Shown piece after piece: positions 27,000 through 62,561 of a stretch of 64,000 nucleotides of DNA (its first letter is position 1; each line of letters begins with the position of its first letter). The DNA is from Elusimicrobiota bacterium (GTDB lineage: Bacteria > Elusimicrobiota > Elusimicrobia > Elusimicrobiales > Elusimicrobiaceae): the NCBI GenBank assembly GCA_029008615.1, contig JAQXJI010000006.1:62001-126000 (forward strand), read 5' to 3'. Made by a program: the position numbers and the translations under genes. The notes beneath the pieces are model-generated. The model was not told the DNA's origin. It worked only from the letters and a program-made list of their open reading frames with translations, and did not search any database.

Positions 27000-27782
27000 T
27001 TACTGAATGTTTTCTGCTTGAATATATATATCATAGTCATTGGAATATTGTTCTACAGTTCCAACTATACGCCATCGTTTTCCCTGACAAACAGGGTCAT
27101 TCTTTGTAAACCATTGGATGGTATTTTTAGGAGTTGTGTTATAAAATACTGATACTGATGAACCATCAGCACAACCAGAACTAAATGCTGTTATTTCTTT
27201 TCGATTCCTATTGACACTGGAAGAAAGTGAGGCGAGAACACTTACTCTTTTTCCAATAAAATTATATTTGTCAGAAATAATTTCATTAATTGTAGTTTGA
27301 ATGGGTTTATGGCTTTCTTCATAAATATAATTTTTAAGTTGTTCATAGCGTTCTGTTGAAAGTCCATTTTTAATGCTTTGTAGAGTCAGACGAGCTGTTT
27401 TCCAATGATGTTTTTGAATTGCATTATTGATTTTATTGATTCCGTCGTCAATGCGTTGCAGTTCACTTGCTTTTTCGGTGGCTTGCTTTGCATAGGACTG
27501 AGCTTGTGCTGTGTAAGGAGACTGCGGAAATTTCTGTCCAAAAACTTTAAAATCATTTGCTACTTCTTGCCACTGTTGTTTATCACTGGCACTATTAAAT
27601 TTATCAACAGCAGATGAAAAAAATCCTTGATCGGTTTCTTTCAATGAGCTAATTTCTTCTTGCAATTGAGCGATTGTATTTTTGAGTTGTTGGTTTTCCG
27701 TTTTCAAGTTATTAATTTCTTTTTTTCCACAACCATTTAATAACATACAACTTATACAACAAATAAATAATATTTTTTTCAT
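27000..27782 (-). CDS. Lipoprotein with coiled coil and possible OB-fold
   Basis: 260 aa. The lipobox LLNGC puts the acylated Cys at residue 18. Residues 22-50 form a clear coiled coil (NNLKTENQQLKNTIAQLQEE). The C-terminal third, GKRVSVLASLSSSV ... GKRWRIVGTVEQYSNDYDIYIQA, has the pattern of a small beta barrel resembling an OB-fold. No known family recognised. GGAGG precedes the start. It is the last gene of the accessory minus-strand run and is AT-richer than the flanks by eye. A role in the envelope is inferred only from the signal peptide. Confidence 0.75.
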   Translation of the reverse strand: MKKILFICCISCMLLNGCGKKEINNLKTENQQLKNTIAQLQEEISSLKETDQGFFSSAVDKFNSASDKQQWQEVANDFKVFGQKFPQSPYTAQAQSYAKQATEKASELQRIDDGINKINNAIQKHHWKTARLTLQSIKNGLSTERYEQLKNYIYEESHKPIQTTINEIISDKYNFIGKRVSVLASLSSSVNRNRKEITAFSSGCADGSSVSVFYNTTPKNTIQWFTKNDPVCQGKRWRIVGTVEQYSNDYDIYIQAENIQ

Positions 27783-27814
27783 TTTATTTCCTCCGATTCT
27801 TGTAGCACTATTTC

Positions 27815-28564
27815 TTACGTTGAATTATTTGTTTTACGGTAAGATTTCTTCTTAGTAAACCGTCTAGATATCTTTAGATCCTTAAATTGCGGTATCAATT
27901 TTTTGATTTGTTTTGCCAAATCTTCCTCTTTAATTGTAATACCTTCGGCTTTTTTAATTTGCTTAGAAAGCATAGTTAAAACATTCTCGCTGATTAAAGC
28001 GCAGCCTAAACATTCACAGGATAAGGCTTTCTGTTTTTCTAACAATTTCTCTCTTAATTGCTTGCTGACGGCTTCGGCACAAAAAGGATAAAGTTTATTC
28101 CGATCCTGTTTACAGTTCCGTATTTCCAGTATATTTTCTATTTCATAGACTTTTGTATGTTGTGGTTGCTCATTCCCTTTTTGGAACACATAGTATATAA
28201 CCCAGGAAAGACCGTTCGTTAAGATTCCCCAATTTGAGTTTGTGGTACAACAATATCCTTTGAGTTGGCTTAACCACTTGTCTTTATACAGGTTTTCTTT
28301 CATACTTTTGCACTCGCAGATCCAAATGAACTGATTTTTATCATTTTTAATAACAAAGTCCGTTTCTTGCTGTGCGCCTGTTCTTTCTTGGTTGTATATA
28401 GAGAACTCATCATATCCGAACAGGTGGATTAAAAATTTTTTGCATAAATCTTCTACCGCACTTTCATTATTATTCTGTTTTTGAATAACCCTCAAGCTCT
28501 TTTTAAGTTCATTCAAATACTTGCATATACGAGCGTCTACTCTCTTCGTTATGGTTATTTTCAT
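27815..28564 (-). CDS. Type I restriction HsdR N-terminal-like nuclease-domain protein
   Basis: 249 aa. The segment QETDFVIKNDKNQFIWICECKSM near residues 85-107 has the PD-(D/E)xK layout (Asp, then E-x-K within a beta strand) seen in HsdR_N domains. An upstream conserved-looking ESAVEDLCKKFLIHLFGYD block also fits. There is no helicase motor, so it is not a full restriction subunit. The C-terminus is Lys-rich and carries two close cysteines (CECLGC). Such stand-alone proteins occur in mobile elements and defence islands. GGAGGAG precedes the ATG. Confidence 0.7.
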   Translation of the reverse strand: MKITITKRVDARICKYLNELKKSLRVIQKQNNNESAVEDLCKKFLIHLFGYDEFSIYNQERTGAQQETDFVIKNDKNQFIWICECKSMKENLYKDKWLSQLKGYCCTTNSNWGILTNGLSWVIYYVFQKGNEQPQHTKVYEIENILEIRNCKQDRNKLYPFCAEAVSKQLREKLLEKQKALSCECLGCALISENVLTMLSKQIKKAEGITIKEEDLAKQIKKLIPQFKDLKISRRFTKKKSYRKTNNST

Positions 28565-28578
28565 TTCTCCTCCATAAA

Positions 28579-28779
28579 TTAATCAACATTTCCTTTTTTG
28601 TTATCTGTTTTTTGTGTTATAGGTAATGCAGGAACTGCTAGTAAATATAAATACGGAACCAATGGCGATAAAAATATAGAAGAGATAAATACAGCTAGGC
28701 CGCTTCTATTTTTCTCACTCGCAATCATTGTATTCATTAATATCAATATAATCCAAAATAAGATACATATTTCTTCCAT
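28579..28779 (-). CDS. Small membrane protein (66 aa)
   Basis: Start chosen at 28779, where GGAG is well placed; the earlier in-frame ATG would overlap the upstream gene. Two hydrophobic helices (ICILFWIILILMNTMIA and SGLAVFISSIFLSPLVPYLYLLAV) are followed by a short charged tail. No family recognised. It sits one base after the 73-aa gene and 14 nt before the nuclease-like gene, so all are probably cotranscribed. Confidence 0.65.
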   Translation of the reverse strand: MEEICILFWIILILMNTMIASEKNRSGLAVFISSIFLSPLVPYLYLLAVPALPITQKTDNKKGNVD

Positions 28780-28780
28780 T

Positions 28781-29002
28781 TTATTTCTCCTTTTGTTTTT
28801 CTGATATATTTTTGAAAATATAATAATCGGAATAATCATCCGTTAAATTGATGTCTTTTCCAGTTAATTTTTTAATATCTCCAGCGATATCAGTTGATAA
28901 TTGGGCTTTTTGTAAAAATATTTTTAATTGTGCCTCTGAAATAATCCAAGAATTTATGGGTTTGTGCTGTTTAATTTGTATACAATGAATCAGTTTCTCC
29001 AT
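28781..29002 (-). CDS. Small cytoplasmic protein of unknown function (73 aa)
   Basis: AGGAG lies 6 nt upstream of the ATG. The protein is hydrophilic, with a probable helical core (ISEAQLKIFLQKAQLSTDIAG) and a Lys-rich end; no motif recognised. Its place between a zinc-ribbon gene and a membrane-protein gene in a compact run supports it being real. Confidence 0.62.
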   Translation of the reverse strand: MEKLIHCIQIKQHKPINSWIISEAQLKIFLQKAQLSTDIAGDIKKLTGKDINLTDDYSDYYIFKNISEKQKEK

Positions 29003-29049: not shown

Positions 29050-29175
29050 TTAGTGGATTTCTCTGAATAAAGTATTTCCACAAGAACACTTAAATCCTGC
29101 TGGGGGAAACGCATTAATTCCCTCAAAGGTATAGACTTGATTACAGCGTGAACATTTCCAATGTTTAATAGCCAT
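29050..29175 (-). CDS. 41-residue zinc-ribbon protein
   Basis: A very short gene: ATG at 29175 preceded by AAGGAG, stop at 29050-29052. The product starts MAIKHWKCSRCNQVYTF and has Cys8-x2-Cys11 and Cys30-x-Cys32, a compact four-Cys zinc site. The reading in the overlapping frame (28971-29231) lacks a ribosome site and is probably a shadow. It is the first gene of the accessory minus-strand run, about 55 nt after the terminator of the structured RNA. It could be a nucleic-acid-binding or redox regulator; the function is unknown. Confidence 0.72.
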   Translation of the reverse strand: MAIKHWKCSRCNQVYTFEGINAFPPAGFKCSCGNTLFREIH

Positions 29176-29230: not shown

Positions 29231-29443
29231 AATAAAAACGGCTGTTATATTTGAGCCAGCTCTAATAACCCAAATAATAACAGCCGTGGTTTGCCGTCCT
29301 GTGGGGCGACAAACACTCGGCACAAAACAACCGGGTAATTAGTCCGTTTGCCTTGTGCCTAAAACGACTGTTTTTGGATTAGAGCTGTGCCGTCGGTATC
29401 CCAACAGCGCACCGTATTCTTCATACGGTTCCAAAAACAGATT
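29231..29443 (-). ncRNA. Structured RNA with a loop-to-internal-strand pseudoknot (novel candidate)
   Basis: Read on the minus strand from a predicted start near 29443. Helices seen: P1 29430-29440 with 29368-29378 (11 bp); P2 29423-29428 with 29412-29417; P3 29409-29412 plus 29401-29405 with 29387-29390 plus 29392-29396 (GATA loop); P4 29353-29359 with 29319-29325 (7 bp); P5 29307-29314 with 29289-29296 (8 bp, one wobble); P6 29277-29286 with 29239-29248 (10 bp), extended by 29267-29275 with 29249-29257. P6 is followed by TTTTTATT and acts as a terminator. Its 9-nt loop (29258-29266) is the perfect complement of 29378-29386, giving a pseudoknot. I match it to no RNA class I know. It could be a free-standing RNA or a leader attenuating the downstream accessory genes. 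Confidence 0.72.
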
Positions 29444-29449
29444 AAATTG

Positions 29450-29478
29450 TATATAAGCCGCGTTTAAGGCTTATTCAA
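29450..29478 (-). promoter_or_regulatory. Promoter of the structured RNA
   Basis: On the minus strand TTGAAT (29478-29473) and TATATA (29455-29450) are 17 bp apart. The predicted start falls just before helix P1, which supports the RNA boundary. Confidence 0.55.
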
Positions 29479-29593
29479 AATTAAACTCCTAAAAACTAAA
29501 TATAATTTATTATAAAAATTTTGTTTGGCTTTGTCATCTTATACAAAAAATGTGCCGTACGGATTTAAAAGAATTTATATGCTTATAGGTACT

Positions 29594-29899
29594 TTAATAA
29601 ATCGGCATATTAAGCAGGGAAAGGTAAATATCTGCCACTTGTTTTAAGGCTTTGACAAAACTGTAAGAAAACCAAATAAATAATATTATCATTATTGCGG
29701 AAAATACTATTTTGGTCCATTTCCCTATAACCGGCGAACGCAAGACAAAATATAAAGCGAATGGCCCTATAAATAAATATAAAAGCCAAACGCCCCAAGC
29801 TTTATAATAAAAAGATATATGCCTGCCTTGGCCGGCCCCGCAATATTTGCAGTAATTGTCGAAGTCGCCTATATCGGTTTTGCATTTCCAGCAAATCAC
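29594..29899 (-). CDS. Zinc-ribbon membrane protein (101 aa)
   Basis: An N-terminal zinc ribbon, CWKC (Cys3, Cys6) and CKYC (Cys17, Cys20), is followed by two membrane helices (VWLLYLFIGPFALYFVL and IVFSAIMIILFIWFSY). Small zinc-ribbon membrane proteins are common and mostly uncharacterised. The ATG overlaps the rel stop (ATGA), so it is the last gene of the lpxB-rel operon. Confidence 0.8.
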   Translation of the reverse strand: MICWKCKTDIGDFDNYCKYCGAGQGRHISFYYKAWGVWLLYLFIGPFALYFVLRSPVIGKWTKIVFSAIMIILFIWFSYSFVKALKQVADIYLSLLNMPIY

Positions 29900-31341
29900 A
29901 GTTCTATGCCTCTTGTTCTTAAGAAAGTCTTTATTTTGGAGCGCGCCCTTGCGGTTTTTGCGGCGTCAAGCCATTGCGGCTTTGGCTCTACGTTTTTGCG
30001 GGTTTGTATTTCTATGATGTCGCCGCTTTTAAGAGGGCTGTTCATTTTAACCATTTTCCCGTTAACAAGTGCGCCGCTGTAATGGTCGCCTATTTCCGTA
30101 TGCACCAGGTAAGCAAAATCCAAAGGGGTGGCGCGTTCGGGCAGAACTTTAACGTCGCCCTTCGGCGTAAATACGAAAATCTGGTTAAGGTTGATATCGG
30201 TCTGGAAGCTTTCCAAAAATTCTCTGGGTGCGGTTAAATCTCTCTGCCATTCTATCCATTGGCGTATCCAGTTTAGTTTTTCATCAAGGTTCGGGTCAGC
30301 TTTCGTACCCAATTTATAACGCCAATGCGCGGCGATACCGTATTCGCAGGTGCGGTGCATATCCTCGGTTCTTATTTGCACTTCAACAAGAGTACCCTCA
30401 AAAAATACCGTAGTGTGTATACTTTGGTACATATTCATTTTAGGCATAGCGATGTAATCGGTAAAACTTCCTGCCAAGGGTTTAAAATTGGCGTGAAGCG
30501 CGCCCAAAGCTCTGTAACAGTCAAGGACGGTATCCGTAATTATGCGCACGCCCAACAAATCTTGTATTTGGTCAAAGGTGGAATCCTGCTTGCGCATTTT
30601 CCTAAAAATTGAATAATAGTTTTTTACGCGGGAAAGCAGCCTGTGCGGTATTTGGTCTTTATCAAGTACGGCGTCCAAAGCGTTTTTAAAGGAAGCGAGT
30701 TTTTTATCCAAATTGGCCTTTTTTCTGTTTACGCCAGCAACTATCTGTTTAAAATCTTCCGGGAACAAATATTTAAAAGAAAGGTCTTCAAGTTCGTTTT
30801 TAATGCTGAACATACCAAGGCGCTGGGCCAAAGGCGCGTAGAGGTTTAAGGTTTCAAGGGCTTTTTCTTTCTGCCTTTTGGCCGGTAGAGCGTCAAGCGT
30901 TTTCATATTATGGGTGCGGTCGGCCAGTTTTATAAGAATAATGCGCATATCGTTTGATACGGCTATAAGCATTTTGCGCCAGTTTTCTACGGTTTCTTCG
31001 TCGGTGGAAGTGTTTTCCAAACTGTCTATTTTGGTAAGGCCGGCCACCATATTGGCTATTTCTTTATTAAAATTTACTTCAATATCTTTAACGGTGGTTT
31101 CGGTGTCTTCCACAGTGTCGTGCAAAAGCGCGGCGGAAATCGTATCTGCGTCAAGCTTGTGTTCCAAAAGGATTTTAGCCACTTCGCAGCAATGAATAAA
31201 AAACGGCTCGCCGGTAAGCCTTTTTTGGTTTTCGTGGGCCTTTTTCGCAAAGAAATAGGCCTTCTCAATCATAGCCGTATCGTGATTGGGATTATATTCC
31301 TTAAAACCCGCGATAATTTCTTCTAAATAATGATCGTCCAT
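29896..31341 (-). CDS. rel: RelA/SpoT-type (p)ppGpp synthetase/hydrolase lacking C-terminal regulatory domains
   Basis: 481 aa. The HD hydrolase domain is intact by eye (FIHCCEVAKIL, ALLHDTVEDT, LADRTHNM). The synthetase domain follows (DLLGVRIITD, GSFTDYIAMPK, YQSIHTTV, VEVQIRTEDMH). A TGS domain (IFVFTPKGDVKVLPE...) ends near residue 450, and the protein stops about 30 residues later. Usual long Rel proteins of over 700 aa continue with helical, zinc-finger and ACT domains. No frameshift explains the end, since the next gene overlaps the stop. It may therefore not respond to ribosomes in the usual way. Confidence 0.88.
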   Translation of the reverse strand: MDDHYLEEIIAGFKEYNPNHDTAMIEKAYFFAKKAHENQKRLTGEPFFIHCCEVAKILLEHKLDADTISAALLHDTVEDTETTVKDIEVNFNKEIANMVAGLTKIDSLENTSTDEETVENWRKMLIAVSNDMRIILIKLADRTHNMKTLDALPAKRQKEKALETLNLYAPLAQRLGMFSIKNELEDLSFKYLFPEDFKQIVAGVNRKKANLDKKLASFKNALDAVLDKDQIPHRLLSRVKNYYSIFRKMRKQDSTFDQIQDLLGVRIITDTVLDCYRALGALHANFKPLAGSFTDYIAMPKMNMYQSIHTTVFFEGTLVEVQIRTEDMHRTCEYGIAAHWRYKLGTKADPNLDEKLNWIRQWIEWQRDLTAPREFLESFQTDINLNQIFVFTPKGDVKVLPERATPLDFAYLVHTEIGDHYSGALVNGKMVKMNSPLKSGDIIEIQTRKNVEPKPQWLDAAKTARARSKIKTFLRTRGIEL

Positions 31342-61370: not shown

Positions 61371-62561
61371 ATGGATTTAAAAAAATATGCCGACGTGATG
61401 ATTTTCGCTTTAAAATCATCCCGTAAAGGGGGAAAGTTCAAACCGGGGGAGAATATTCTTGTAAGTTACGATATGCCCGCCTTGCCGCTTGCCGAAGAAA
61501 TTTACGCCAAACTTATTGAGGGCGGCTTTAACGTGATTTTAAGGCCTTACGCCACTGAAAAAATGGCTAAAATACTTTACACCAAAGGCAGCGACAAACA
61601 AATAAAATTTATGCCGGAATGGGAGAAACTTTTTACCGAAAATCTTAACGGCCTTATAGCGTTAAGAGCCCCGCAGGATTTGGCAAATTTAAAAGATGTC
61701 GACACCAAAAAAATAGCTTTGGCGACAATCGCCAGAAAGCCGATACGAGAAATTATGGACGTCAGGGAAGAACGCGGATTGTTTTCTTGGACTTTGGCCA
61801 ATTACCCTACCGAAGGTTTGGCAAAGCAGGCCGGTTTAAGTTTAAAACAGTATGAAGCGCAAATCGCCAAAGCCTGTTTCTTGAACGAGAAAAACCCCGC
61901 CAAAAAATTTGCGGAAGTTACCGCCGAAATCAACGAAGTTTCCAAAAGGCTTTCTTCTTTGCCGATAGTTAAATTAAGAACTCAGTCCGAAAATATGGAC
62001 TTGGAGATACTTTTGGGTGAAAAACGCCGTTTTATAAGCGGAGGCGGGTGCAATGTTCCCTCTTTTGAGATTTTTACTTCCCCGGATTGGCGCGGTACGC
62101 GCGGGGTCTACTTCAGCGATTTAATGAGTTTCCGCAACGGCAATTACGTCAAAGACATCCGCCTGGAATTTAAAGCCGGTCGCGTGATTAAAGCGACGGC
62201 GGGGCAGGGGGAAGATTTCCTTAAAAAAATGCTTTCCCTGGACCGTGGCGCAAGCCAGATAGGGGAATATTCTTTGACTGATACGCGCTTTTCCAAAATA
62301 GACCGCTTTATGGCCGATACTTTGTATGACGAGAACTTCGGCGGTGCTTACGGCAACAGCCATATAGCTTTGGGTTCCAGTTACAGCGATACTTTCAGCG
62401 GCAATTTGTCCAAACTTGATAAGAAGCTTAAAAAACAGCTTGGTTTTAACGAGTCCGCATTGCATTGGGATTTGGTAAACACGCAAAATAAATTGGTTAC
62501 CGCAACATTAAAAAACGGAAAACATTTAACAATTTATGAAAAGGGCCGTTTTTTGGTCTGA
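61371..62561 (+). CDS. M29-family aminopeptidase
   Basis: 396 aa metallopeptidase of the AmpS/PepS group, releasing N-terminal residues from peptides. Likely ligands of the di-metal site are in PSFEIFTSP (Glu), GEYSLTD (Glu), YGNSHIALGSSY (His), HWDLV (His and Asp), matching family order with small changes (a longer GGAYGNSHIALG loop). No signal peptide, so cytoplasmic. AGGAGG precedes the ATG. Confidence 0.87.
   Translation: MDLKKYADVMIFALKSSRKGGKFKPGENILVSYDMPALPLAEEIYAKLIEGGFNVILRPYATEKMAKILYTKGSDKQIKFMPEWEKLFTENLNGLIALRAPQDLANLKDVDTKKIALATIARKPIREIMDVREERGLFSWTLANYPTEGLAKQAGLSLKQYEAQIAKACFLNEKNPAKKFAEVTAEINEVSKRLSSLPIVKLRTQSENMDLEILLGEKRRFISGGGCNVPSFEIFTSPDWRGTRGVYFSDLMSFRNGNYVKDIRLEFKAGRVIKATAGQGEDFLKKMLSLDRGASQIGEYSLTDTRFSKIDRFMADTLYDENFGGAYGNSHIALGSSYSDTFSGNLSKLDKKLKKQLGFNESALHWDLVNTQNKLVTATLKNGKHLTIYEKGRFLV

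Follow-up and report, generated by a model that had tools for sequence, protein, structure and literature searches.

Within the 64,000-nucleotide stretch of the Elusimicrobiota bacterium contig JAQXJI010000006.1 that we analyzed (positions 62,001 to 126,000; hereafter the window), the minus strand is predicted to encode a structured RNA (29502-29234) that, judging from covariation and modeled folds, is very probably the 5' leader of an operon of accessory genes, which it would control by transcription attenuation. As far as sequence searches can tell, the RNA belongs to a family that is previously uncatalogued.

Structure of the leader RNA

An earlier interpretation made without database searches (the sequence-only reading) had described this locus as an undescribed structured RNA with six helices, and that description holds. 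The minus-strand RNA folds at -94.1 kcal/mol (29450-29225), compared to -58.3 +/- 4.3 for shuffled sequences (z = -8.4, 0/200), and all the helices it named are present: P1 (29440-29430/29378-29368), two enclosed hairpins, P4, P5, and P6 with its T tract, to which an extra 5' hairpin, P0, can be added. Rfam 15 gives no match to the window RNA at gathering level, and a relaxed threshold returns chance-level matches only, of which the highest-scoring, at 21 bits, lies on the opposite strand. The leaders of six other loci likewise have no match in Rfam 15. The parts of the leader are as follows.

29509-29537, minus strand: promoter, with -35 box ATGACA (29537-29532), a spacer of 17 base pairs (bp), and -10 box TATAAT (29514-29509), agreeing with 11/12 consensus positions
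29453-29474, minus strand: hairpin P0 (ATAAGCC..GGCTTAT), from sequence and fold; window-type copies have it, most pilin-type copies do not
29440-29450, minus strand: conserved unpaired ACAATTT 5' of P1, from two alignments (A1, A2)
29430-29440, minus strand: strand 1, the 5' strand of P1, CTGTTTTTGGA, paired with 29378-29368 in 98.7% of alignment cells
29389-29428, minus strand: P2 (29428-29412) and P3 (29409-29389), hairpins enclosed by P1, with covariation in 96 copies
29378-29386, minus strand: code arm A, AGCTCTAAT, the 5' half of strand 2, complementary to 29266-29258 with 9 covarying pairs
29365-29378, minus strand: remainder of strand 2, TCCAAAAACAGTCG, which has two alternative partners, strand 1 in P1 and strand 3 in the antiterminator (29372-29365 with 29286-29279)
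29319-29359, minus strand: hairpin P4, covarying, with apical loop AC-TAATTA-C and a palindrome of 6 nucleotides (nt) at 29341-29336, a putative kissing-dimer site
29289-29314, minus strand: hairpin P5, covarying
29238-29287, minus strand: terminator hairpin P6; strand 3 runs from CGGCTGTT (29286-29279) through the code loop, and strand 4 is the 3' arm
29258-29266, minus strand: code arm B, ATTAGAGCT, the P6 loop, exact 9-nt complement of 29386-29378
29234-29238, minus strand: T tract of the intrinsic terminator, from sequence; relatives are T-rich there

The RNA was also expected to have its own promoter and terminator, and both are present, although the promoter and the start just before P1 that had been chosen for it gave way to a better pair. 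The chosen TTGAAT...TATACA is weaker in the window copy than ATGACA-17-TATAAT, and TTTTTATAATAA of the latter region is kept in close relatives. Because this best promoter (29537-29509) is conserved among them, transcription of the window copy probably begins near 29502 and takes in P0. Across family copies, -10 boxes upstream of the leader cluster at fixed distances, and pilin-type copies seem to start near P1, at ACAATTT. Window-type leaders have an AGGAG motif 5' of P0 (29490-29476 in the window), after which inspection found no consistent start codon. A candidate lock pairing between TTTGAGCC (29207-29197), 3' of the terminator, and GGCTCAAA of the P6 3' arm is present in the window and a few close copies; it was rejected as a family feature, being barely commoner than in shuffles across the whole family.

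Two mutually exclusive folds

When 96 copies (alignment A2) were folded together, the unprompted RNAalifold consensus was an antiterminator, in which strand 2 (the code and the 3' strand of P1) pairs with strand 3 (the P6 5' arm and loop), and which the alignment fold chose over both P1 and P6. All 9/9 pairs of the code helix covary, with 359 double-changed cells versus 110 after shuffling and no more than 111 in slid controls, and the adjoining 8-bp antiterminator helix is paired in 99.3% of cells with nearly invariant letters. The trinucleotide that follows the P1 strand (after CAG) is TCG, CCG, or CTG in 94/96 copies; P1 makes no use of it, and each version can pair with CGG of P6. The P6 5' arm, CGGCTGTT, does not vary in 94/96 copies, but the strand it pairs with in the terminator shows G-U changes, as would be expected if the arm had a second partner. 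P2 through P6 all covary in the same 96 copies.

The exact complementarity between the P6 loop and the segment between P1 and P3 had been seen in the sequence-only reading, and it recurs in other letters in nearly every relative. What finds no support in the form proposed is its interpretation as a pseudoknot tying the end of the RNA to its start, in which the code would pair with P1 and P6 intact. The 9-bp pairing of the code is not in doubt, but we regard the pseudoknot as highly improbable: the code duplex has a median length of 10 bp, whereas the P6 loop offers 6-7 nt, which places 3-4 code nucleotides within the P6 stem, and the adjoining 8-bp helix between strands 2 and 3 would be left unexplained. 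The code partner overlaps P6 stem nucleotides in 185/233 copies, which means that P6 cannot stay intact when the code is fully paired. As the 9-nt match directly adjoins the 8-bp helix of the P1 3' strand and P6 5' arm, the combined pairing reads as an antiterminator exclusive with both P1 and P6.

Folding predictions point the same way. In the window, the antiterminator is favored by ~10 kcal/mol in truncated RNA, and the terminator by ~4 once the RNA is complete. Qualitatively the same switch, from antiterminator in RNA that lacks the P6 3' arm to terminator in full-length RNA, is predicted for 223/233 copies. The pairings also persist in a compact subfamily of ~175 nt, in which one hairpin replaces P4 and P5 (L239:1501-1682, L240, L146, L147, L148, L158). 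Here the letters of P1 and the antiterminator differ, GATTATT..AATAATC standing in place of CTGTTTTT..AAAAACAG, with every pairing kept, the arms match in 31/32 copies (the automatic arm search picked the wrong segment for L263), and the antiterminator is 97.2% paired.

Distribution of the family

The sequence-only reading had proposed looking for homologues with compensatory changes in the helices and in the 9-nt pairing, and a family with such changes in P2-P6 and in the code was found. A covariance model built from the 96 copies, with a short calibration and run on metagenome-assembled genomes, detects the leader in 83/90 genomes of the family to which the window belongs; a single other family, remotely placed in the phylum, contributes at least 14 more genomes, with E values as low as 1e-48. 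The window's own genome has 7 copies, and two relatives have 49 and 129, the latter (G045) in 1.7 Mb. DNA searches find copies in most genomes of the window's genus and its sister genus, often many in each. The compact form extends to further genera, including sister genera where the long form was not found, and a model built from compact copies (R2) matches long or compact forms in 93/341 genomes across the phylum.

An anchored pattern run over 84,980 species genomes matched 76 stretches. Those confirmed by the profile come from records labelled Elusimicrobia, Elusimicrobiaceae, Elusimicrobiales, Elusimicrobiota, or 'uncultured bacterium', many of them from rumen, gut, or faeces; pattern matches in one viral contig, Muricauda, and Draconibacterium were rejected as the profile did not match them. 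Phage and plasmid collections gave no match, and an exact 20-mer scan of genome contigs found nothing.

A terminator in front of genes

Each copy ends in a terminator (P6 and T tract), and in most a gene on the same strand starts ~25-100 nt further on. In the first set of copies examined the start codon usually lies 30-100 nt past the T tract with a ribosome-binding site before it; the gap has a median of 41 nt in G045 (10-90% range 35-49) and shrinks to 21-25 nt for most pilin leaders of the compact type. With a gap this short a separate promoter hardly fits, and the gene should therefore be read only when polymerase passes the terminator. Two hallmarks of an attenuator are found together in this family, namely an intrinsic terminator followed on the same strand by a gene so close that a further promoter has hardly any space or none, and a conserved antiterminator mutually exclusive with that terminator. 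Of the two roles offered in the sequence-only reading, an attenuating leader of the downstream genes agrees with these close same-strand genes, while a trans-acting RNA is needless where a gene follows within this distance in most copies.

A private code in each copy

In G045, 114/114 examined junction cores are distinct, and the code duplex averages 10.4 bp within a copy versus 5.6 bp between copies. The code also outpaces the other helices, as at 80-85% identity elsewhere it retains 42%, compared to 68-79% for P3-P5. One genomic site illustrates this in two near-identical strains (L045:1892-2106 and L107:2843-3057), where 650 bp upstream are essentially identical, the downstream gene is ~98% shared, and both code arms have been replaced, each version matching itself. 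A natural chimera also exists (L002:249-466), which carries the junction code of one leader type and the loop code of another, its arms being non-complementary. Our guess is that concerted change of the arms arises from recombination among copies, followed by inverted-repeat correction.

The P4 loop palindrome

The P4 loop contains a 6-nt palindrome in 163/240 copies, of more than 12 kinds, including TAATTA, TTATAA, TTCGAA, TCATGA, TTGCAA, CTGCAG, CTCGAG, CAGCTG, and CTATAG. Among distinct P4 loops 42/77 are palindromic, where 9.8 are expected (maximum 19 in 500 shuffles), and palindromes occur in 1/36 P5 loops and 0/81 P2/P3 loops. The commonest layout is 2 nt, the 6-nt palindrome, and 1 nt. 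Apical self-complementarity is thus kept as a palindrome though its letters change, as in loops of the dimerization initiation site (DIS) type, and this suggests a kissing-loop homodimer.

Downstream genes and probable mobility

Most genes behind the leader encode type IV prepilins, and across the family 184/247 distinct downstream proteins are prepilin-like. In G045, inspection identified prepilins in 112/114 downstream genes, and in the parts of this genome that were read the leader precedes 109/180 prepilin motifs. These parts (L164-L218) hold at least 180 prepilin-like motifs in ~1 Mb, 71 of them without a leader, many of which are divergent genes adjoining a leader. Elsewhere leaders precede genes for glycosyltransferases, LicD, pyruvyl transferase, outer-membrane proteins, and lipoproteins, as well as an EcoRI-type methylase, HSDR_N proteins, a PLD/Snf2 helicase, and a nuclease homologue. 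A set in which pilins stand beside surface sugars and restriction-modification is typical of phase-variable loci. In the window's own genome leaders stand in front of accessory genes, and the listed pilin genes are not at leader sites. The genes that follow the window leader are these.

29050-29175, minus strand: gene 1, a 41-residue zinc-ribbon-like protein (CxxC..CxC) with ribosome-binding site AAGGAG at 29183-29178; a Pfam scan gave no family above cut-off
28781-28999, minus strand: gene 2, 72 residues, whose homologue in a distant-family genome also stands behind such a leader (L139; 31% identity, E 4e-09)
27000-28839, minus strand: three more co-directional genes, one of which (27815-28564) has a type I restriction HSDR_N_2 domain (Pfam); a gene of this kind also lies behind leader L045

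Upstream on the same strand, the window encodes a small zinc-ribbon protein (29594-29899) and a RelA/SpoT-type protein with HD, synthetase, and TGS domains (29896-31341). A leader and methylase pair is also found in the distant family, with 65% protein identity. As both this pair and the leader with a gene 2 homologue recur there, the units appear to move horizontally. Between L045 and L071 the promoter-leader-gene unit is ~97% shared and the upstream flanks are unrelated. Near a leader-pilin unit on a rumen Elusimicrobiota contig, L173:8927-9032 matches Rfam STnc490 at 64 bits against a cut-off of 56, which is probably spurious.

Proposed mechanism and alternatives

If the leader is an attenuator, pairing of strand 1 with strand 2 (P1) and of strand 3 with strand 4 (P6) would give the terminator fold and leave the gene off, while strand 2 with the 9-nt code, paired to strand 3 and the P6 loop, would form an antiterminator of ~17-24 bp that encloses P4 and P5 and leaves the gene on. 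The antiterminator would be the more stable fold until the P6 3' arm is transcribed, and the terminator afterwards. Nascent RNA would then be on by default and finished RNA off, and every transcription event would therefore be a race, whose outcome may depend on the speed of polymerase compared to that at which strand 3 wins strand 2 away from P1, as well as on any stabilizers of P1-P2-P3. We infer this direction of control, as well as a switch that is either stochastic or set by a signal. Feedback private to each gene is also conceivable, if rather unlikely, as an addition suggested by the sequences: leaders might dimerize by the P4 loop, and a terminated leader might invade nascent leaders with the same code, such that genes are set on or off independently. 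This would be an RNA counterpart of contingency loci, with codes rewritten through recombination among copies.

Several observations weigh against the attenuator reading or its extensions. Measured by energy difference, ~11-19% of copies show no terminator preference in the complete RNA, and 8/32 compact copies fold as the antiterminator even when complete; RNAfold leaves out pseudoknots and kinetics. Gene starts lie farther off in the distant family (median 85 nt). The codes are no more orthogonal than random, cross-complementarity being close to the shuffled null, which gives no sign that cross-talk is avoided.

A metabolite riboswitch, in which P1-P2-P3 would bind a small ligand (given the pili, e.g. 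a cyclic dinucleotide) and the terminator and antiterminator would be its expression platform, could account for the leader position, the platform anatomy, the conserved unpaired ACAATTT, and a regulon rich in pilins. We consider it unlikely, as P2 and P3 are free in length and sequence with no compact invariant core beyond P1, the controlled genes range from pilins to methylases and glycosyltransferases, and such a switch has no need of a private code in each copy. Inverted repeats acting at the DNA level for movement or inversion of cassettes, with RNA folding secondary, would fit the travel of promoter, leader, and gene as a unit (L045/L071), the leader-methylase pair common to distant families, and the joint change of both code arms. 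The covariation of P2-P6 and the terminator anatomy are RNA features, however, and neither a recombinase nor an inverted form turned up, although no systematic search was made for either, which leaves this explanation quite improbable. A free small RNA that acts in trans, alone or as a dimer, and whose terminator merely ends the RNA while the genes use promoters of their own, would agree with its own promoter, its strong terminator, and the dimers that the P4 palindrome predicts. It is harder to reconcile with a start codon 21-50 nt past the T tract in most copies, with the ribosome-binding site inside that gap, or with conservation of the antiterminator alternative, and we hold it to be very unlikely.

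Significance and comparison with known systems

If the attenuator reading is true, uncultured gut bacteria of one phylum govern pilin and surface genes in very large numbers by one RNA design, in which specificity lies in a short self-complementary code and not in a protein-binding site. It raises the questions of how code arms ~110 nt apart change jointly, whether leaders dimerize, and whether pilin repertoires are expressed stochastically and exclusively. The matched code arms also offer a natural compensatory series for studies of co-transcriptional strand exchange.

Attenuation leaders of the trp type exchange strands between 1:2 with 3:4 and 2:3. The Elusimicrobiota leader would share this four-strand logic, but its 2:3 pairing carries sequence private to the copy. 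With T-box and riboswitch platforms it has a leader, a terminator, and an antiterminator in common, though it lacks an Rfam match. The HIV-1 DIS has an apical loop of ~9 nt with a 6-nt palindrome flanked by two 5' nucleotides and one 3' nucleotide. This is the layout of the P4 loop, which differs in belonging to a bacterial leader, in its many different palindromes, and in that its dimerization is putative. Plasmid antisense copy-control RNAs draw private specificity from fast-changing, self-matched loops; the code described here is similarly fast-changing and self-matched, but resides in chromosomal leaders with both arms in cis within one transcript. A comparable system for pilus genes is pil1 of Streptococcus gallolyticus, which is reported to undergo phase variation by an attenuation-like mechanism, with a stem-loop terminator in the leader and heterogeneous expression (PMC3894217). 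Both systems place a premature stem-loop terminator in the leader of pilus genes. In pil1 the terminator is reportedly destabilized by the ribosome together with a leader peptide whose length varies, whereas the Elusimicrobiota leader has an explicit antiterminator, no conserved leader peptide that inspection could find, and more than 100 copies in one genome.
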